A DNA stretch of 36,085 nt, taken from NCBI RefSeq assembly GCF_003611695.1, contig NZ_RAWE01000085.1, forward strand, positions 1 through 36,085. Direction: 5' to 3'. The stretch is from Corallococcus carmarthensis. GTDB lineage: Bacteria > Myxococcota > Myxococcia > Myxococcales > Myxococcaceae. The translations under genes were made by a program, and so were the position numbers. The notes under the pieces are model-generated. The model had not been told where the DNA came from. It searched no databases and worked only from the letters and a program-made list of their open reading frames with translations. Positions within the stretch are counted from its first letter, which is position 1. Every line of letters begins with the position of its first letter. Of this stretch, positions 16,366-24,726 are shown piece after piece.

Positions 16366-17436
16366 CTACGGGTAGCAGGCCGCCTGGCGCAGGCCAGTGT
16401 CCTCGGGGTAGCCGAGGGCCACGTTGAAGTTCTGCACCGCCTGTCCGGCCATGCCCTTCACCAGGTTGTCCAGCGCCGCCATCACCGCCACCGAGCGGCC
16501 CTTCGTCGCCACGGAGATGTCGCAGAAGTTGCTGCCCGCGACGGCCGCCACGCGCGGCGTGCCCTCCACGATGCGCACGAACTTCGAGCCCTCGTAGTAG
16601 CGGCGGTACTTCTCCGTCAGCGACTGCGTCACCACCGCGCCGCCGTGCTCCGGCCACTCGAACTGCACCGTGGCGAAGATGCCGCGCACCATGGGCGCCG
16701 AGTGCGGCACGAAGGCCAGCCGGTGCCGCTGCGCTCCGTGCGCCACCAGCATCACCTCCACCTCCGCCTCGTGCTGGTGCTCCAGCGGCTTGTACGCGCG
16801 GAAGTCGTGCGCGCGCGTCGGGTGGTGCGTGCCCTCGCCCGGCAGCGAACCGGAGCCGGACGAGCCCGTCACGCCCGACACCGCCAGGAGCCCCAGTCCC
16901 GGCGTGGCCGCGATGGGCAAGAGCGCCAGCTGCACCGCCGTCGCGAAGCAGCCCGGGTTGGCGATGCGCTTCGCCGTCTTCACCTGCTCACGCTTCCACT
17001 CCGTGAGGCCGTAGGTGAACGTGCCCAGCAGGTCCGGGGACGGGTGCGGCCGGCCGTAGGCGCCCGCGTACCGGCCCGGGTGGTCCAGGCGGAAGTCGGA
17101 CGACAGGTCCACCAGCAGCATCCGGTCCGCGATCCCCGCGTCCGCCCACTGCTTCTCCAGCCCGGCGAACTGCGACGCCAGGTCCCCGTGCCCCAGCGCG
17201 CTGAACACCACCGGGCGCTGCGAGTCCGCGAGCCAGCGCCAGTCCGGCTCCGCCTCGAAGCGGCCGTCCACCAGCCCGCGCAGGTGCGGGTGCACCTTGT
17301 GGATGGGAGAACCCGCATGGTGCCGCGACACCACGCGGATGCCGGCGTTGCCGGGGTGGCCCGAGAGCAGCCGCAACAGCTCGCCTCCGCCGAAACCGGA
17401 GGCCCCCAGGATGTAGATGTGCGCAGGCGACGTCAT
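16366..17436 (-). CDS. argC: N-acetyl-gamma-glutamyl-phosphate reductase
   Basis: 356 aa. It reduces acyl-glutamyl phosphate to the semialdehyde with NADPH, the third step of the acylated arginine route. The nucleotide loop is GASGFGGGELLRLL (11-24); the active-site Cys163 is in IANPGCFATAVQL. SGVTGSSGSGSLPGEGTHH and a later HQHEAEVE match the extended ArgC form seen in Bacteroidetes-like operons. The ATG at 17436 overlaps the stop of the preceding P-loop gene by 4 bp (ATGA), so translation is coupled. It is the last gene of the arginine operon; a hairpin at 16323-16351 follows. Confidence 0.95.
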   Translation of the reverse strand: MTSPAHIYILGASGFGGGELLRLLSGHPGNAGIRVVSRHHAGSPIHKVHPHLRGLVDGRFEAEPDWRWLADSQRPVVFSALGHGDLASQFAGLEKQWADAGIADRMLLVDLSSDFRLDHPGRYAGAYGRPHPSPDLLGTFTYGLTEWKREQVKTAKRIANPGCFATAVQLALLPIAATPGLGLLAVSGVTGSSGSGSLPGEGTHHPTRAHDFRAYKPLEHQHEAEVEVMLVAHGAQRHRLAFVPHSAPMVRGIFATVQFEWPEHGGAVVTQSLTEKYRRYYEGSKFVRIVEGTPRVAAVAGSNFCDISVATKGRSVAVMAALDNLVKGMAGQAVQNFNVALGYPEDTGLRQAACYP

Positions 17437-18494
17437 GACTTCCTCCCCGCACCCAGCTTGGGCGCGAGCTTCTCCACGATGAGATTCCCCAGGGCGTTCG
17501 GATCCGCGCGCGCGTTGCGAGCGGGCAGCCCCACCACCTGCTCCACGAAGCGCACGCCCACCGCGTTGTCCGTGGCGGGCCCGGCCACCATGTCCATCTC
17601 GATGCCGTACACCTCGCGCAGGTGCCGCACGCCGCCGGCCGCGCCCACCGGGTCGTTCGCGCACAGGATGAACGCGCCACCCAGCGCCTTGAGCTCCGGA
17701 TCCGCCAGGATGGCCTGCACGCCGTACTCACCCATGATGCCGTCGCCCGTCTCCGCGACGATGACATCCACCTCCTGGGCCGCCATCTCCGAGAAGACGA
17801 TGCGCGCCACCTTGGACGCCGTGCGCGCCCCGGTGCACACGACGCCCGCGTCCGTGAAGTCCATCACCACGTCCGCGCCGCTGTCCTGCATGGACAGGGT
17901 GTCGCGCATCAGCGACACGCCGGTGAGCTTCGCGCCGCCCACGCGGTAGCCCGCCTGGGACAGCTTCCGCACCACCACGCTGGCCGCGTACGTCTTGCCC
18001 GCGTTCATGCAGGTGCCCACCACGTACACCACCGGGCACGTCACCGCCCTCGACGTGCCCTTGAGCGCGCCGGTGGAGATGTGCGCGTGCTGGCCCGCGC
18101 GCGACTGGAACTCCGGGAAGGTGAGGACCTGGCCCAGCACCTCCGCCTCGAACGGCGGCCCCACGCCCGGGTTGTGCGACGTGCACTTCCCGATGACGCC
18201 GCCCATGTTGAGGATGTTGAGCTTGTCGCCCACCGTGACGGACGAGGGCACCACGCCCTCGTAGCCGTGCAGGGCGTTGCGGTGGCCCAGCGCGCCCACG
18301 ACGATGTCGCCCGCGTGGAGCGTGACGAGCCGGCCGTTCACGTCCTCCAACTGGTTGTAGACGCTCTTCTCCCCGTGGATGCGCACCGCGATGACGGCGC
18401 CTTCCTCGCACTTGACCTCATCCGTGAGGTGCACCGTGCGCCCCACCTGGAGGTTGCGCGTGACACTGCCCACCTTGTCGACGTGGATCTTCAT
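17433..18494 (-). CDS. P-loop protein of unknown function inside the arginine operon
   Basis: 353 aa, soluble. The N-terminal 150 residues form a beta-rich domain (VHLTDEVKCEEGAVIAVRIH, VVGALGHRNALHGYEG). A Walker A motif GTCMNAGKT at 160-168 starts a second domain. It continues with GGAKLTGVSLMRDT, a switch-like VIVAETGDGIMGEYG at 245-259, and LCANDP-VGAAGGVR at 278-290. This pattern resembles the dethiobiotin-synthetase/CobQ/DUF1611 group of P-loop enzymes, which handle a small acid substrate with ATP, but I cannot name a family. It lies 4 bp after argG and overlaps argC by 4 bp, so it is made in fixed proportion to them. A ligase or kinase step on a glutamate- or arginine-related compound is an inference. 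Confidence 0.85.
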   Translation of the reverse strand: MKIHVDKVGSVTRNLQVGRTVHLTDEVKCEEGAVIAVRIHGEKSVYNQLEDVNGRLVTLHAGDIVVGALGHRNALHGYEGVVPSSVTVGDKLNILNMGGVIGKCTSHNPGVGPPFEAEVLGQVLTFPEFQSRAGQHAHISTGALKGTSRAVTCPVVYVVGTCMNAGKTYAASVVVRKLSQAGYRVGGAKLTGVSLMRDTLSMQDSGADVVMDFTDAGVVCTGARTASKVARIVFSEMAAQEVDVIVAETGDGIMGEYGVQAILADPELKALGGAFILCANDPVGAAGGVRHLREVYGIEMDMVAGPATDNAVGVRFVEQVVGLPARNARADPNALGNLIVEKLAPKLGAGRKS

Positions 18495-18498
18495 GTCG

Positions 18499-19686
18499 TC
18501 ACTTCGCTTTCTGCGAGAGCATCTGCGCGACGCCGTAGAGCTTGGCGAACCCCGCCGCTTCCGTCCCCGTCCACAACACGTTGGCCTCTCCGTACGTCGC
18601 CACCTTCGCGTCCATCAGCGAGTGCGGCGAACGCACGCCTTCCACGACGTGGGCGCGCGGGGTGAGCACCAGCTTCACCTCGCCCGTCACGCGGTCCTGC
18701 GAGGAGGCGAGGAACGCCTCCAGGTCCTTCACCAGCGGGTCGAAGAAGTGCCCTTCGTGGAGCAGCGACCCGTACAGGTTGCCCACCGTCTCCTTCCAGA
18801 AGAGCTGCTTGCCCGACAGCACCAGCTTCTCCAGCTCGCGGTGCGACGCGATGAGCAGGTGCGCCGCGGGCGCCTCGAAGCCCACGCGGCCCTTGATGCC
18901 CAGGATGGTGTCGCCCAGGTGCACGCCCCGGCCGATGCCGTACGGCCGGCCGATGGCGTTGAGCTTCTCCACCACCTCCACCGCGGACATCGCCTTGCCG
19001 TCGAGCGCCACCGGCACGCCCTTCTCGAAGGAGATGATCAGCGGCAGGGGCTTCAGGTCGGTGGGGATTTCGCCACCCGGGAAGGCCGCCTCCGGCAGGG
19101 TGCTCCACGAGTCCAGCGTCTCGCGGCCGCCCACGGACGTGCCCCACATGCCCTCGTTGACGGAGTACGTGCCCGTCTTCGCCGGCAGGTGGAAGCCGCG
19201 CTCCGCGAGGAAGGAGATCTCCTGCTGGCGGGAGAGCGCCAGGTCGCGGATGGGGGTGATGAGCTGCAGCTGCGGCGCGAGCGTGCGGAAGGCCACGTCG
19301 AAGCGGACCTGATCATTCCCCGCGCCGGTGCTGCCGTGGGCCACGGCCTGCACGCCCAGCTTCTCCGCCATGCGCACCGCCTCCACGGCCTGGCAGGCGC
19401 GCTCGGCGGAGACGCTCAGCGGGTAGAGCTGGCCGCGCAGCACGTTGCCGGCGACGAGGAAGCGCAGGTAGCCCTGGAAGAGGGTGTCGCGCGCGTCCAC
19501 CGTGTGGTGCGCCACCGAGCCCAGCTTCTGGGACAGGGCCTGGATGCGCTCCAGCTGCTCGGGCGGGAAGCCGCCCGTGTCCACGGTGACGGTGGTGACG
19601 TCCCAGCCCTGCTCGCGCAGGTACACCGTGCAGAACGCGGTATCGAGGCCACCAGAGAACGCCAGCACCACGGACTTCTTGCTCAT
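18499..19686 (-). CDS. argG: Argininosuccinate synthase
   Basis: 395 aa. It joins citrulline and aspartate using ATP. The pyrophosphatase loop SGGLDT is at 10-15, and the family motif AHGSTGAGNDQVRFD binds citrulline/aspartate. The variants VDTGGFPPEQ, LSVSAERACQAVE and GMWGTSVGGRETL resemble the Bacteroidetes-type ArgG rather than the proteobacterial one; this comes from recall of the family, not from an alignment. The ATG at 19686 is directly followed by the first strand, KKSVVLAFSGG. It lies between argH and the P-loop gene. Confidence 0.96.
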   Translation of the reverse strand: MSKKSVVLAFSGGLDTAFCTVYLREQGWDVTTVTVDTGGFPPEQLERIQALSQKLGSVAHHTVDARDTLFQGYLRFLVAGNVLRGQLYPLSVSAERACQAVEAVRMAEKLGVQAVAHGSTGAGNDQVRFDVAFRTLAPQLQLITPIRDLALSRQQEISFLAERGFHLPAKTGTYSVNEGMWGTSVGGRETLDSWSTLPEAAFPGGEIPTDLKPLPLIISFEKGVPVALDGKAMSAVEVVEKLNAIGRPYGIGRGVHLGDTILGIKGRVGFEAPAAHLLIASHRELEKLVLSGKQLFWKETVGNLYGSLLHEGHFFDPLVKDLEAFLASSQDRVTGEVKLVLTPRAHVVEGVRSPHSLMDAKVATYGEANVLWTGTEAAGFAKLYGVAQMLSQKAK

Positions 19687-19726
19687 CTTCGGACTCCTGT
19701 TGCTGCGAAAGGGGGTGAGGAAGTCT

Positions 19727-21076
19727 TCAGGGGGCCCAGACGCGGGAGGCGGCCTGGGTCGCTTGCGCGTGGGTGCGCGTGAGCCAGTCGCGCGCATCCG
19801 CCAGTTCCTCGCGCGCGGTGGCGAGGCCCAGGTTGCCGGCGCCACCCAGGTGGGTGGCCGTCAGCGCGCCGCGGTCCGGCTGGAAGCTGCCGTCGCTCAA
19901 CTGACGGCCCACCTCCCGGTACGCGTCTCGGAAGGGCTGCCCCTTGGCCACGAGCGCGTAGGCATGGTGCGCGGCGTAGAGCGTGTCGTCGCACGCCGCG
20001 CGCGCCTTCTCCGCGTTCACCTTCAGCGCGGGCACCAGCCGCGCCAGCACCTCCAGCAGCGCCTTCGCGCTGGTGAGGGCCTGGAGGGTGGGGCGCTTCA
20101 GCAGCTGGAAGTCACGGTGGTAGCTGGAGGGAAGCCCGCCGGCCACCGCCTCCACCTGGTGCGCAAGGCCGCGCAGCTCGCGGCAGCGGCCCCGGGCCAG
20201 CTCCACCACGTCCGGGTTCTTCTTCTGCGGCATGATGGACGAGCCGGTCGTGAAGGCATCCGGCAGGGCCAGGAAGCCGAACTCGTCCATGCTGTAGAGC
20301 TGCACGTCCCAAAGCCACTTCTCCAGAGTGCCCGCCACCGAGCACGCCCAGGTGAGCAGCGCCGCTTCATGCCGCCCCCGACTGTCCTGCGCGTCGATGG
20401 GGCTGCGTTGAACTCGACTGAAACCGAGCAACCGCGCGACATATTCACGGTCGATGGGAAGCGGCACGCCGAAACCCGCGGCGGCGCCCAGCGGGCAGCG
20501 GTCGAGCCGCCCCCACACGCCCTTCAGCGCCTCCAGCTCCTCCAGCAGTCCCTCGGCGAACGCCATGCCCCACAGGCCGAAGGTGGACGGCATCGCGCGG
20601 CGCAGGTGCGTGTAGCCGGGCAGGGGCAGGTCCGCATTCGCTTGCGCGAAGTCGAGGAACGTCCCCGCCAGCTCCGCCGTGCGCGCGCCCAGGGCGAGCA
20701 GCTCCTCGCGCATGAACAGGCGCAGGGCCAGCAGCACCTGGTCGTTGCGCGAGCGCGCCAGGTGGATGCGCTTGCCCGCCTCGCCGGTGCGCTCCACGAG
20801 CGCCGCCTCCAGCGCGGTGTGGCCGTCCTCCTGCTCCGGGCGGATGGTGAAGCGGCCCGCGCGGGCCTCGTCGTGCAGCGCGTGCAGCGCGGCCACGAGC
20901 GACGTGGCGGCCTCCGGGGTGAGCAGCCCCACGTGCGCGAGCATGCGCGCGTGCGCGGCGCTGCCCAGCGCGTCGTGCGGCACCAGCGACAGGTCCACCA
21001 CGGGGTCGTCGCCCACGGTGAAGGCGTGGATGGCCGCGTCCAGCGGCTGGCCCTTGCCCCACAATGTCTCAGCCAC
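19727..21076 (-). CDS. argH: Argininosuccinate lyase
   Basis: 449 aa. It splits argininosuccinate into arginine and fumarate. The fumarase/lyase signature is TGSSIMPQKKNPDVVEL; an earlier LARSRNDQV carries the conserved Arg-Asn-Asp. The GTG at 21076 is chosen because GGGAGG lies 7 nt upstream; the in-frame ATG at 21094 has no ribosome site. The start overlaps the end of argE by 8 bp. The gene is followed after 40 bp by argG, the only noticeable gap in the lower part of the operon. Confidence 0.96.
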   Translation of the reverse strand: MAETLWGKGQPLDAAIHAFTVGDDPVVDLSLVPHDALGSAAHARMLAHVGLLTPEAATSLVAALHALHDEARAGRFTIRPEQEDGHTALEAALVERTGEAGKRIHLARSRNDQVLLALRLFMREELLALGARTAELAGTFLDFAQANADLPLPGYTHLRRAMPSTFGLWGMAFAEGLLEELEALKGVWGRLDRCPLGAAAGFGVPLPIDREYVARLLGFSRVQRSPIDAQDSRGRHEAALLTWACSVAGTLEKWLWDVQLYSMDEFGFLALPDAFTTGSSIMPQKKNPDVVELARGRCRELRGLAHQVEAVAGGLPSSYHRDFQLLKRPTLQALTSAKALLEVLARLVPALKVNAEKARAACDDTLYAAHHAYALVAKGQPFRDAYREVGRQLSDGSFQPDRGALTATHLGGAGNLGLATAREELADARDWLTRTHAQATQAASRVWAP

Positions 21077-22139
21077 GCGACACCTCCCCGGCATAGCCGT
21101 GCAGCAGTCGTCGATAGAACGCGAGCCCCGCCTCCAGCTCCGCGCGCGTGAGGTACTCGTTCGCCTGGTGGCTCCGCAGCGTGTCGCCCGGGCCCACCTT
21201 CACCGCCGGGAGGTCGCCCAGGAACGCCCAGTCGGACGTGGTGCTGGAGCCCACCGTTCCCTGGCCCGACGCCGCCACCGCCGCGCGCACCAGCGGGTGC
21301 GCCGCGTCCGTGCCCTTGGGCAGGTAGCGCGCGGAGTGCACCACCACCTCGCTCTCCAGCGCCGCGCCCACGTCTTGCGCCACCTTCGCGTGGTCCATGC
21401 CCGGCGTGGTGCGCAGGTCCACGAAGAACTCGCACCGGTCCGGCACCTGGTTGCGCGCCAGGCCTCCGGACACCTGCGTCACCTGCGCCCGCGCCTCACC
21501 CAGCAGCGGGTGCGCGGGGAAGCGCAGCGCGGACACAGCCTGGATGTCCCGGGCCGCCTTGAGGATGGCGTTGGATTCCGAGCCCAGGCCGCCCGTGTGC
21601 GCGTGCGCGACGTGTCCGCTCTTGCCGTGCGCCACGCAGCGCAACAGCAGCATGCCCCGCTGCGCCGTGCAGGGCTTGAGCGACGTGGGCTCGCCCACGA
21701 TGGCGGCGTCCAGCGGCCCCAGCGTGGACAACAGCGGCCCCAGCCCCTTGCCGCCCGTCTCCTCCTCGGCGGTGAGCGCGAAGACGCACTCGACACCCTC
21801 GGGCGCGCCTTCGGTGAGGAGCGCCTTCGCGGTGAGGAGCATGGCGGTGACGCAGCCCTTGGCGTCGTTGGCGCCCAGGCCGTAGAGCGTGTCGTCCTTC
21901 CACACGGCCTCTTGTGGCTCCGTGTTCCACCCGGCGCACGGCTTCACCGTGTCCAGGTGCGAGTTGACGAGCAGGCGCTTCGGCCCGCTGCCCACGCTGA
22001 ACCACACGTTGTGGCCCTGGCGGTGCACGCGGGCACCCCAGGACTCCGCATGGCCCGAGACGAGGTCCGCGATGCGGGCCTCGTCGCCGGAGACGCTGGG
22101 TGTGGCGACCAGCGCGGTGAGCAGCTCGGCGGGGTTCAA
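21069..22139 (-). CDS. argE: M20-family N-acyl-citrulline/ornithine deacylase
   Basis: 356 aa. It removes the acyl group from N-acyl-citrulline (or N-acyl-ornithine); the nature of the operon's transcarbamylase favours citrulline as product. Zinc and catalytic residues are visible: His61 and Asp63 in LLVNSHLDTVKP, Asp92 in GLGANDAKG, Glu125-Glu126 in LTAEEETGG and Glu in VGEPTSL. The dimerisation lid domain is the middle part from about 165 to 270. It starts with TTG at 22139, whose last bases overlap the argB stop (TTGA), and ends inside argH. No ATG is available near this point, so the TTG start is firm. Confidence 0.92.
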   Translation of the reverse strand: MNPAELLTALVATPSVSGDEARIADLVSGHAESWGARVHRQGHNVWFSVGSGPKRLLVNSHLDTVKPCAGWNTEPQEAVWKDDTLYGLGANDAKGCVTAMLLTAKALLTEGAPEGVECVFALTAEEETGGKGLGPLLSTLGPLDAAIVGEPTSLKPCTAQRGMLLLRCVAHGKSGHVAHAHTGGLGSESNAILKAARDIQAVSALRFPAHPLLGEARAQVTQVSGGLARNQVPDRCEFFVDLRTTPGMDHAKVAQDVGAALESEVVVHSARYLPKGTDAAHPLVRAAVAASGQGTVGSSTTSDWAFLGDLPAVKVGPGDTLRSHQANEYLTRAELEAGLAFYRRLLHGYAGEVSRG

Positions 22140-23062
22140 CCCTTGGCCTCGCCGTGCTTCACCGGGTGCTCGCGCACGACCATGGTGCCGCTGCCCTCGT
22201 TGGTGAACACTTCCTCCAGGAGCGCGTCGGACTGCTTGCCGCTCACCAGGTGCACGCTGCCCACGCCGCCCACGAGCGCGTGGCGCATGGCGTGCGCCTT
22301 GGGACGCATGCCGCCCGTGAGCCGGCCTTCGGCCTCCAGGGAGGCCAGGTCCGACAGCGTGGCCAGCGAGATGAGCGAGGACGGGTCGGAGACGTCCTTG
22401 AGGAGCCCCGGCACCTCCACCATGAAGAAGAGCTTCTCCGCATGCAGCGCCGCCGCCAGGGCCGCCGCCACCGTGTCCGCGTTGGTGTTGTACACGGCGC
22501 CGTCCTGGCCGCCCGACAGCGGGGCGATGACGGGCACGTAGTCGGCGCTTCGCAGGTGCTCCACGACGCGCGTGTCCACCGACTCGATGTCGCCCACGAG
22601 GCCGTAGTCCACCATCCGGCCCTGCGTCTCGCCGGGCTCCGTCACCAGCACGGGCGGGCGCTTGCGCGCCTTGATGAGGCCCGCGTCCACGCCGGACAGG
22701 CCCACCGCGGGCACGCCCGCGGCCTGGAGGTCCGCGAGCAGGTCCGTGTGCAGCTTGCCCGCCAGCACCATCTTCGCCGCGTCCAGCACGGGCGCGGAGG
22801 TGACGCGGCGGCCGGCCACCTTCTCGATGGGCAGGTGCAGGGCGTCACAGAGCGCGTCCAGCTCCGGACCGCCGCCGTGCACGACGACGGGGCGGATGGA
22901 GAAGGCCCACAAGAGGGCGATCTGCTCGCACGCCGTCTTGCGGGTGCGCGGATCCGTCAGCACGGCGCCGCCCAGCTTCACCACGAAGGTCTTGCTGCGG
23001 AACTGCTTCACGTACTTCGCCGCGTTGCGAAGCGCGGCGTACGGGTCGGGAGACAAAGGCAC
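22136..23062 (-). CDS. argB: Acetylglutamate kinase
   Basis: 308 aa from GTG 23062, with AGAGG 7-11 nt upstream. It phosphorylates N-acylglutamate. Motifs: FVVKLGGAVL near the N-terminus, VVVHGGGPELD for the nucleotide/substrate loop, YNTNADTVAAALAAAL, and TGGMRPKAHA for the conserved C-terminal Lys loop. The Glu after HGGGP replaces the usual Gln of HGGGPQ, a small variation near the substrate site. The gene lies between argF' (59 bp upstream) and argE (overlapping). Whether it prefers acetyl or succinyl glutamate is unknown. Confidence 0.94.
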   Translation of the reverse strand: MPLSPDPYAALRNAAKYVKQFRSKTFVVKLGGAVLTDPRTRKTACEQIALLWAFSIRPVVVHGGGPELDALCDALHLPIEKVAGRRVTSAPVLDAAKMVLAGKLHTDLLADLQAAGVPAVGLSGVDAGLIKARKRPPVLVTEPGETQGRMVDYGLVGDIESVDTRVVEHLRSADYVPVIAPLSGGQDGAVYNTNADTVAAALAAALHAEKLFFMVEVPGLLKDVSDPSSLISLATLSDLASLEAEGRLTGGMRPKAHAMRHALVGGVGSVHLVSGKQSDALLEEVFTNEGSGTMVVREHPVKHGEAKG

Positions 23063-23121
23063 GGTGGACCTCTGAAAAGGCGAAAGGGGACGAAGAAGGG
23101 TGGGGCGGCTGGCTTCTAGAC

Positions 23122-24126
23122 TCAGCCGCCGCGCATCCAGGCCAGGAGGGCGCGCTGCACGTGGTAGCGGTTGCCCGCCTCGTCCACGACGCGGCTGCTC
23201 GCGTGGTCCAGCACCTCGTCGGCGACCTCCACGTTGCGGCGCACGGGCAGGCAGTGCAGGAACGCCGCATCCTTCGCGGCCTTCGCCATGTGCCGGCGCG
23301 TGGGCATCCAGCCCGAGTACGACGCGAGCAGCGCCGCGACGTCCGTGGGCGTGCTCGCCGTCTGCGCGGTGGGGCCCCAGGACTTCGCGTACACGGCGCG
23401 GCTGCCCACCAGCGCCTCGTCCTGGTCGTGCGTGTACGTGATGCTGCCGCCGGTGGCCTTGGCGTACGCCTCGGCCTCCGCGCGCACGGCCGGGTGCAGG
23501 TCGAAGCCCGGAGGATGCGCCACGCGCACCTCGCAGCCCGCGGCCGCCGCGGACAGCAGGAACGAGTTGGGCACGGCCTTGGGCAGCGGCTTGATGTGCG
23601 GCGCCCAGGTGAGCGTCACCGGCAGCTTCTTCGTGGTGCCGAACGTCTCGCGCAGCGTGAGCGCGTCCGCCAGGCCCTGGCAGGGGTGCTCGCGCGCGGA
23701 CTCCATGCTCACCACCGGCACGGTGGCCCACTTGCGGAAGGCGTTGATGACGGGGTCGGCCTCGTCCTCCTCGTCACCGCCACCCTGGGAAAAGGTGCGG
23801 ATGCCGAGCATGTCCACGAAGCGCGACAGGACGGGCGACGCCTCCTTGATGTGCTCCGCACGGTCCGCGTTCATCACCGCGCCCGGACGGTCCTCCAGCT
23901 TCCACACGCCAGAGCCCACGTCGAGCACGATGGCGTGCCCGCCCGCGCGCAGCATCACGGCCTCGAAGGACGTGCGCGTGCGCAGGGACGGGTTGAAGAA
24001 CACCATGCCCAGGATCTTCCCGGGGAACAGCGCCCCGGGGTCCTTCTGCTTCCACGCGGCCGCCTGCGAGAGGACCGCCTCGACGCCTTCCGGCCCCAGG
24101 TCCTGGATGCGGGTGACATGCTTCAT
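23122..24126 (-). CDS. argF': N-acyl-ornithine carbamoyltransferase (AOTCase/SOTCase type)
   Basis: 334 aa. It transfers a carbamoyl group to N-acetyl- or N-succinyl-ornithine. The carbamoyl-phosphate loop reads FFNPSLRTRTSFE (43-55), as in N-acyl-ornithine enzymes, rather than STRTR of classical OTC. TWAPHIKPLPKAVPNSF and HCLPVRRNVEVADEVLD also follow that group. The residue that decides acetyl (Glu92 in Xanthomonas) versus succinyl (Pro90 in Bacteroides) is Ala90 here, in NADRAEHIKE. Small residues at this point are reported to allow succinyl-ornithine, so a succinyl substrate is plausible. The ATG at 24126 is the first gene of the operon, about 45 bp after a palindromic operator-like site. 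Confidence 0.92.
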   Translation of the reverse strand: MKHVTRIQDLGPEGVEAVLSQAAAWKQKDPGALFPGKILGMVFFNPSLRTRTSFEAVMLRAGGHAIVLDVGSGVWKLEDRPGAVMNADRAEHIKEASPVLSRFVDMLGIRTFSQGGGDEEDEADPVINAFRKWATVPVVSMESAREHPCQGLADALTLRETFGTTKKLPVTLTWAPHIKPLPKAVPNSFLLSAAAAGCEVRVAHPPGFDLHPAVRAEAEAYAKATGGSITYTHDQDEALVGSRAVYAKSWGPTAQTASTPTDVAALLASYSGWMPTRRHMAKAAKDAAFLHCLPVRRNVEVADEVLDHASSRVVDEAGNRYHVQRALLAWMRGG

Positions 24127-24170: not shown

Positions 24171-24198
24171 GAATATGCACTTGAATTCGTGCATATTC
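24171..24198. promoter_or_regulatory. Palindromic operator, probable ArgR site, in the argF'-argR divergent region
   Basis: A perfect inverted repeat, GAATATGCAC and GTGCATATTC, is separated by TTGAATTC. It lies in the 180-bp region between the divergent argF' operon and argR, and resembles the TGAAT/ATTCA half-sites of known ARG boxes. A second half-site-like TGCGTATTCA lies at about 24275-24284. A TATTAT -10-like box for argR is at 24215-24220, so a bound repressor here could control both directions. ArgR binding is an inference. Confidence 0.75.
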
Positions 24199-24306: not shown

Positions 24307-24726
24307 ATGAACCTGGACGACGCCATCCTTCAGCTCATCTCCCGGCAGGACGTTCCGGATCAGTTCGTCCTGCAGTCGCTGCTGGAGGAGGCGGGGCACA
24401 CGCCCAGCCAGTCCACGCTGTCGCGGCGGCTGAAGAAGCTGAGCGTGCAGAAGGTGAACGGGCGCTACCAGCGCACGGAGCCGGCGGTGGCGCCGGTGCC
24501 GCTCGCGCCCTCGGTGACCATCATCGAGGCGCCGCCCAACATGCTGGTGCTGAAGACGGCGCCCGGCTACGCGCAGATCTTCGGGCTGGCGCTGGACCGC
24601 GAGGAGGTGGAGGGCCTGGCGGGCACGGTGGCGGGCGACGACACCATCTTCATCGCGGTGAGGGACCCTTCGCTGTTGCAGGACGTGCGCGAGGCGGTGC
24701 AGCAGCTCATCCAGCGCGGCCCGTGA
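24307..24726 (+). CDS. argR: Arginine repressor
   Basis: 139 aa, slightly shorter than the usual 150. The N-terminal winged helix contains the recognition segment HTPSQSTLSRRLKKL. The C-terminal hexamerisation and arginine-binding domain ends with GLAGTVAGDDTIFIAV, including the GTxAGDDT motif. An in-frame TGA lies directly before the ATG, so the start is certain. It is divergent from the arginine operon with a palindrome between them, and should sense arginine and repress the operon and itself. Its last 20 bp overlap the convergent 2'-5' RNA ligase gene. Confidence 0.95.
   Translation: MNLDDAILQLISRQDVPDQFVLQSLLEEAGHTPSQSTLSRRLKKLSVQKVNGRYQRTEPAVAPVPLAPSVTIIEAPPNMLVLKTAPGYAQIFGLALDREEVEGLAGTVAGDDTIFIAVRDPSLLQDVREAVQQLIQRGP

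Follow-up and report, generated by a model that had tools for sequence, protein, structure and literature searches.

A P-loop protein encoded beside argC, a predicted first enzyme for arginine synthesis through acylated and possibly succinylated intermediates

Described pathways and the operon under study

The arginine operon analysed here lies within a 36,085-nucleotide stretch of DNA from a predatory soil bacterium of the Myxococcota (hereafter the window, meaning that whole stretch) and encodes, next to argC, a P-loop protein that is the main subject of this work. The described systems with which the operon is best compared are the succinyl pathway of Bacteroidetes and the pathway of Xanthomonas. 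In Bacteroidetes (B. fragilis succinylornithine carbamoyltransferase, SOTCase; BT3717, BT3761/ArgA2, BT3549), carbamoylation precedes deacylation and the first enzyme is a GNAT protein, ArgA2/BT3761 (GapMind, PMC7311316; PMC9026213). Xanthomonas combines an acetylornithine carbamoyltransferase (AOTCase) with a bifunctional N-acetylglutamate synthase (NAGS)-kinase. For Veillonella an amidohydrolase-like first enzyme, ArgA3, was proposed (PMC9026213), and N-acetylglutamate synthase was described as lacking in most other Holophagaceae considered (PMC11561045).

The operon of the window would share with the Bacteroidetes pathway the carbamoylation before deacylation, and it shares the residue types of the carbamoyltransferase ArgF', that is, Ala/Pro at the specificity position with Pro and Glu/Val/Ile at two others. 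With the Xanthomonas pathway it has in common the acyl-ornithine carbamoyltransferase family and the clustering of the arg genes. It differs from the former in that it includes no GNAT gene but one for the unrelated P-loop protein, and in that its ArgF' is no near relative of the one in B. fragilis. Clusters of the Xanthomonas type also exist in Myxococcota, but these have Glu/Asn/Lys in ArgF', no P-loop gene, and an ArgB of 410-423 amino acids (aa) in the three loci carrying the NAGS domain (PF04768) that reach argB complete, as against 253-317 aa in P-loop loci, except one clipped by the contig end.

Seven minus-strand genes, running from 24126 to 16366 in the order argF'-argB-M20-argH-argG-P-loop-argC, make up the operon (Table 1). 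This packed arrangement agrees in order, strand and span with an earlier reading made from the sequence alone (the sequence-only reading), which had placed the P-loop gene correctly and passed over its role. The best explanation of the locus is an ArgR-linked arginine operon using N-acylated intermediates as far as citrulline. From context we predict, with somewhat better than even confidence, that the P-loop protein is a new, non-GNAT N-acylglutamate synthase. In the pathway proposed, it would make N-acylglutamate, which ArgB and ArgC would then activate and reduce; ArgD, encoded outside the operon, would add the amino group, ArgF' would carbamoylate N-acylornithine, the M20 deacylase would release citrulline, and ArgG and ArgH would complete arginine. 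BioD and CTP synthase act by ATP-driven acyl-phosphate formation, and the chemistry of the first step could be either of this kind or an acyl-CoA transfer, for which DgcN (D-glutamate N-acetyltransferase) is named. Judged from sequence, succinyl would be the likelier acyl group, a contested point that we hold with somewhat less confidence than the first-step role. More tentative is the full proposal, to which we give slightly less than even weight, that a new family joining a BioD-like P-loop domain to an N-terminal domain without a clear structural match makes N-succinylglutamate, perhaps via ATP, and so opens a succinyl-type pathway across many phyla outside Bacteroidetes.

The P-loop gene and its arginine partners

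A scan of genome contigs gave at least 567 confirmed relatives of the P-loop protein, and the linkage counts below refer to the best 80 of these. In all 80, argC was the next mapped gene on the same strand after the P-loop gene (median gap 39 bases, largest 703), and argG lay upstream within 900 bases in 72; within the stretch examined, ArgF' or an ornithine carbamoyltransferase was present in 67 and argB in 69. Outside the group to which the window belongs, the genes usually run argG, P-loop, argC, argD, argF', argB, M20, argH. By record title, many records being metagenome-assembled genomes (MAGs), such operons occur in Myxococcota, Acidobacteriota, Gammaproteobacteria, Armatimonadota, Planctomycetota, Verrucomicrobia, Bdellovibrionales, Elusimicrobia and Gemmatimonadota, and the gene is also present in records of Geothrix and further Holophagaceae. 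The operon type is thus not restricted to the genome of the window, since records from many phyla show it. Six of 15 loci inspected for more open reading frames (ORFs) hold argB, argC, argD, argF', M20, argG and argH (L066, L074, L109, L111, L113 and L123), and no gene for step one was mapped in these six full loci; for their argD ORFs, TIGR00707 (acylornithine transaminase family) was the best or second best model, under its cut-off. Across 64 loci, the identities of the P-loop protein track those of ArgF', ArgC and ArgB (r 0.945, 0.945 and 0.90, respectively; 0 of 999 permutations). Moreover, the gene stands beside a standard ornithine carbamoyltransferase in L102 (Bdellovibrionales; 343 bits, cut-off 306) and, by motif, in G194, so its association with ArgF' is not obligatory. 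Such independence would be expected of a step common to both routes, i.e. one before argC.

Some of the linked records deserve separate mention. A record titled Comamonas sp. KCTC 72670 (BNCN01000006.1, L062) has a Myxococcaceae-type arginine operon with 77-90% protein identity for most genes, and looks mislabelled or contaminated. P-loop arginine operons also appear in MAGs titled Klebsiella pneumoniae (L118) and Methanoregulaceae archaeon (L125), both placed with uncultured bacteria by the ArgF' tree, so that wrong titles or mixed bins are probable. In seven loci with Gammaproteobacteria titles (L078, L080, L083, L086, L088, L097 and L101), the operon was seen and the M20 deacylase was not mapped.

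Among 195 Myxococcota genomes, the P-loop protein was found in 60 and ArgJ in 90. A single genome (G016) has both, its P-loop relative being a weak match, 29% identical and away from any mapped arg gene. Counted by genus in the window's family, the P-loop protein is present in 5, ArgJ in 18, neither in 3 and both in none (Fisher p 0.0009, with kinship ignored). ArgJ was absent from all 50 P-loop genomes of the wider scan (50 of 58 taken, at least three of them Myxococcota by title; genome completeness was not established), and none of the ten Myxococcota genomes with the NAGS domain of the Xanthomonas type has the P-loop gene. That is, the P-loop gene is near-exclusive with respect to ArgJ and the NAGS domain. 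The host of the window, a 10.8 Mb Myxococcota genome (G000; the operon is on contig 514), contains no ArgJ, no PF04768 and no classical ArgA over cut-off.

The carbamoyltransferases linked to the P-loop gene form a distinct class by their residues. The acetyl and the succinyl enzyme are told apart at three positions, Glu92/Asn185/Lys302 versus A/S/P/V/Q, P and V/I/E (PMC4581275), and by this rule ArgF' of the window is of the succinyl type at all three, with Ala90, Pro182 (Asn185 in Xanthomonas) and Glu300 (Lys302); the B. fragilis enzyme has Pro, Pro and Ile. The sequence-only reading had noted the acyl-ornithine-enzyme loop and stretch, and both FFNPSLRTRTSFE and PHIKPLPKAVPNSF are present; it had also placed Ala90 in the Glu92/Pro90 column, which alignment with the Xanthomonas and B. 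fragilis enzymes bears out, and Pro182 and Glu300, which it had left unused, strengthen its view of the specificity. Taken together, the sequence supports ArgF' as an acyl-ornithine carbamoyltransferase with succinyl-type specificity residues. Its NCBIfam label is N-acetylornithine carbamoyltransferase, the score exceeding the cut-off of that model despite the Ala/Pro/Glu residues (NF003384, 447.9 bits, cut-off 288), and the solved chains closest to it are X. campestris enzymes, the top one engineered to carry Ala at the specificity position. In 72 P-loop-linked ArgF' sequences (70 distinct, many close kin), position 92 is Ala in 42, Val in 15, Pro in 7, Thr in 4, Gln in 3, Ser in 1 and Glu in none, and all three succinyl-type residues are found in 62; six carbamoyltransferases of 346-347 aa (L048-L053), set apart by motifs, are omitted from this count. 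ArgF' from genomes with the NAGS domain was Glu/Asn/Lys in all five examined. No second carbamoyltransferase was found in the host genome at E 1e-20, although at this threshold carbamoyltransferases also go undetected in certain ArgJ genomes (e.g. G091). As ArgF' is the only one found at this cut, it is likely that the genome reaches citrulline by an acylated route.

The six enzymes left out of the residue count are of yet another carbamoyltransferase type, marked by the stretches AYSPSVHKP and MHCLPxDRG; their genomes (G003, G004, G005, G007 and G009) lack ArgJ.

No named NCBIfam family accounts for the P-loop protein. NCBIfam gave weak mobB/bioD matches, and no GNAT, ArgJ or NAT domain was matched in Pfam or NCBIfam. 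DUF1611 (PF07755) scored 23.3 bits against 25 (25 in the genome search with frame neighbours included) and was weak in all 11 set-A1 members. Positions conserved in 99% or more of 119 aligned relatives include G160, M163, G166, K167 and T168 of the Walker A motif, K43, Y46, E50, R55, D63, R72, Y78, N96, C104 and R132 of the N-terminal domain, and K167, K189, D198, D204, D215, E248 and D251 of the C-terminal domain. In the model of the full protein (predicted local distance difference test, pLDDT, 88), the C-terminal domain is nearest by VIA-align to TM0796 (2g0t; Z 16.9, 181 aligned, 3.3 Å), with further matches to CTP synthases (Z 16.6 and lower), the DUF1611 protein 2obn (15.7), BioD (15.7) and DgcN 7xrj (Z 14.8, root-mean-square deviation 3.2, 179 aligned). 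BioD and CTP synthase thus share the fold of the P-loop domain (Z about 15 to 17), but BioD profile matches are weak and the gene context is unlike. DgcN has a C-terminal P-loop domain of similar fold and belongs to DUF1611 (PF07755), which the P-loop protein matches weakly; it offers a precedent for acyl transfer to glutamate (name of NF041892; EC 2.3.1.312 in PMC11747546). Membership of DgcN was nevertheless rejected: neither the window protein nor the 11 set-A1 members match NF041892, the profiles align at Walker A only, and the N-terminal domain, judged from models, is a different one. Searched alone at E 0.001, this domain (residues 1-152) matched nothing in the PDB; its best Z of 3.2, a likeness to the repressor/LexA C-terminal domain, was taken as chance.

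The genome has a DgcN of its own, encoded by another DUF1611 gene (L001, contig 179; NF041892 522.1 bits, cut-off 480) that is unlinked to the arginine operon.

We propose the P-loop protein as the first enzyme because its gene adjoins argC in all of the best 80 relatives, because step one is the only one without a mapped gene in six otherwise full operons and because it is near-exclusive with ArgJ and the NAGS domain. Further points counted toward this proposal are the contrast between linked ArgF', never Glu at position 92, and the five ArgF' examined from NAGS genomes, all Glu; the parallel divergence with ArgF', ArgC and ArgB; the DgcN-like C-terminal fold; the growth of M. xanthus DK1622 on A1 medium without arginine (PMC5801462); and the reported lack of N-acetylglutamate synthase in other Holophagaceae, a family in which several records carry the P-loop gene. 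Genome annotation repeatedly comes up short at the first step of arginine synthesis; if the prediction is true, one unnamed family fills this gap in several phyla. It would then be a fourth unrelated kind of protein for this step, beside GNAT, ArgJ and the proposed ArgA3 (PMC9026213), and arginine synthesis via a non-acetyl, probably succinyl, tag would not be limited to Bacteroidetes. Searches of an open-access library (subscription papers and preprints being outside the scope) turned up no paper that assigns this P-loop protein to arginine synthesis; among the papers listed there, two mention DUF1611, PF07755 or COG3367.

Weighing the acyl group and the first step

The succinyl part of the proposal faces its main challenge from ArgE. 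An insertion in argE (MXAN_1012) makes M. xanthus auxotrophic for arginine (PMC5801462). In two complete genomes, likely of the genus Myxococcus, an above-cut-off ArgE of the acetylornithine type is encoded at 1.24 Mb, far from the M20 gene of the operon (6.29 and 6.44 Mb), and the number MXAN_1012 would suit the unlinked ArgE. The unlinked gene has no close same-strand gene downstream (one likely-Myxococcus genome), and therefore a polar effect of the insertion is unlikely. Above-cut-off ArgE was present in all 29 P-loop members of the family tested (6 of 6 and 23 of 23). Also weighing against succinyl, 10 of the 72 P-loop-linked ArgF' sequences lack at least one of the three succinyl-type residues. 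In older papers M. xanthus is assigned a linear pathway with acetylated intermediates and ArgE (PMC1865377, PMC1382215, PMC4258820). It could be that the Ala90 ArgF' uses N-acetylornithine, that the unlinked ArgE deacetylates N-acetylcitrulline and that N-acetylglutamate comes from the P-loop protein or some other one, a possibility that would also fit the named fold relative DgcN being an N-acetyltransferase. We consider this acetyl pathway doubtful, though deserving of weight. ArgF' is of the succinyl type at all three positions and Glu92 is missing from every linked ArgF'; ArgE is ancestral in the family, as 25 of 27 P-loop-negative members also have it above cut-off, and outside the family just 3 of 30 P-loop genomes do. 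Furthermore, two residues linked to ArgE specificity are replaced in the M. xanthus enzyme (PMC11270798), so that a different acyl group is conceivable.

The 'argE' named within the operon by the sequence-only reading is indeed an M20-family gene, but it scores far under the cut-off of every NCBIfam model listed (TIGR01892, 135.7 bits versus 297.7; TIGR01900 dapE-gram_pos, 133.5 versus 304.2), and the above-cut-off ArgE is elsewhere in the genome (L175, contig 133). ArgE is retained in this way alongside the operon M20 in Myxococcaceae. As two M20-type genes are kept, there are two candidate deacylases in this family, the operon M20 being putative in the role. The suggestion that the cluster runs on succinyl intermediates gains from the three ArgF' residues and loses by the need of M. 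xanthus for ArgE, apparently the unlinked one of acetylornithine-deacetylase type.

The role in step one that we prefer for the P-loop protein has its own difficulties. Gene context points to a role in arginine synthesis, not to which one. The fold match of the models is unspecific, DUF1611, CTP synthase, BioD and DgcN being near ties, and in Foldseek's own ranking the signal recognition particle (SRP) GTPases come top. Profile comparison with DgcN covers 30 columns round Walker A at a probability of 4%, the DgcN rows being few and near-identical. The standing of ArgF' as the genome's sole ornithine carbamoyltransferase depends on the E 1e-20 cut, which misses some relatives' enzymes. Lastly, 39 of the 195 Myxococcota genomes have neither the P-loop protein nor ArgJ nor PF04768, and therefore other first enzymes exist.

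The first step could instead fall to an unlinked GNAT acting as N-acetyl- or N-succinylglutamate synthase, with the P-loop protein regulating, assembling or feeding enzymes, as P-loop ATPases frequently act for other proteins. GNAT proteins serve step one in Bacteroidetes (PMC7311316, PMC9026213), and the genome has many, two of which weakly match the ArgA GNAT region (24.7 and 20.7 bits). The higher-scoring one was nonetheless set aside as ArgA, its presence across the 195 genomes being patchy: at E 1e-20 it is found in 23 of 53 P-loop family genomes and in one without the P-loop gene. Given also that ArgA, ArgJ and PF04768 are all missing above cut-off from the genome, in searches that did not include ArgA2 of the Bacteroidetes type, and that the P-loop gene adjoins argC in each of the best 80 relatives and is near-exclusive with the known first enzymes, we regard an unlinked GNAT as unlikely. 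A later specialised step for the P-loop protein, e.g. with ArgF' or in carbamoyl phosphate supply, would agree with the tight linkage to and parallel divergence with ArgF', but is very improbable considering that ArgC diverges equally in parallel, that L102 and G194 use a standard ornithine carbamoyltransferase and that Xanthomonas-type ArgF' occurs without the P-loop protein.

Layout, regulation and origin of the operon

With revised starts for argB (GTG 23061) and argG (ATG 19686), the operon genes are tightly packed, overlapping by four to 26 bases or otherwise separated by gaps of at most 60 bases. The argR gene on its flank also matches TIGR01529 (NCBIfam) at 84 bits, under the cut-off of the model. 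The inverted repeat between argR and argF', GAATATGCAC-N8-GTGCATATTC, is the sole match in the window when up to three mismatches are allowed, and had no counterpart in 100 shuffles. A similar repeat occupies the same place in all five Corallococcus/Myxococcaceae loci L054-L057 and L059 and is not the top-ranked repeat in six other Myxococcaceae record or genome loci nor in three others (16 loci were compared beside the window). By the pattern of the E. coli ARG box, it is likely the ArgR operator. PADLOC gave no match for the window.

Table 1. Positions of the operon genes, their regulatory flank and selected protein features in the window
Feature	Position	Strand	Remarks
argC, N-acyl-gamma-glutamyl-phosphate reductase	16366..17436	-	TIGR01850 325.8 bits, cut-off 233.6
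P-loop protein, proposed N-acylglutamate synthase	17433..18494	-	353 aa; adjoins argC
Walker A motif GTCMNAGKT, residues 160-168 of P-loop protein	17991..18017	-	intact
N-terminal beta-rich domain, residues 1-152 of P-loop protein	18039..18494	-	modelled alone, pLDDT 90.9
argG, argininosuccinate synthase	18499..19686	-	TIGR00032 307.3 bits, cut-off 268.2
argH, argininosuccinate lyase	19727..21094	-	TIGR00838 303.5 bits, cut-off 279.5
M20-family deacylase, ArgE/DapE type	21069..22139	-	PF01546 78.4 bits
argB, N-acylglutamate kinase without NAGS domain	22136..23061	-	TIGR00761 204.5 bits, cut-off 151.3
argF', N-acyl-ornithine carbamoyltransferase with succinyl-type residues	23122..24126	-	334 aa from ATG 24126; NF003384; A90/P182/E300
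Codon of Ala90, specificity position	23857..23859	-	column of Glu92 (X. campestris) and Pro90 (B. fragilis)
Inverted repeat GAATATGCAC-N8-GTGCATATTC	24171..24198		argR/argF' interval; perfect 10-base arms, 8-base spacer
argR, arginine repressor	24307..24726	+	divergent from operon; PF02863 66.6 bits, PF01316 34.5 bits, each over cut-off

Judged by ArgF' and the P-loop protein, the nearest named relatives are Corallococcus, Citreicoccus, Myxococcus and Pyxidicoccus. The ArgF' tree places the window in a well-supported group of 33 rows with Acidobacteriota (Holophagaceae), Gammaproteobacteria and others, and the remaining Myxococcota ArgF' elsewhere. A close Bacteroidetes tie is not supported: forcing the Myxococcaceae ArgF' into one group with that of B. 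fragilis costs 22.95 in likelihood (approximately unbiased, AU, test, p 0.019; the group was chosen after inspection of the tree, Bacteroidetes was represented by one partial ArgF', that of B. fragilis, and long branches are in play). The Bacteroidetes link considered in the sequence-only reading accordingly has, for ArgF', both the tree grouping and the AU test speaking against it. That the operon occurs patchily among members of the family suggests that it was gained laterally, or lost differentially, as a whole.

Two of the remaining enzymes show peculiarities of their own. For ArgG, the Bacteroidetes appearance noted in the sequence-only reading was not confirmed; the protein gains slightly more bits with NF003385 and NF001770 than with TIGR00032, yet each of these two scores is under the model's own cut-off. 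In ArgH, the match to its model stops at residue 398 of 455, beyond which the protein is divergent.

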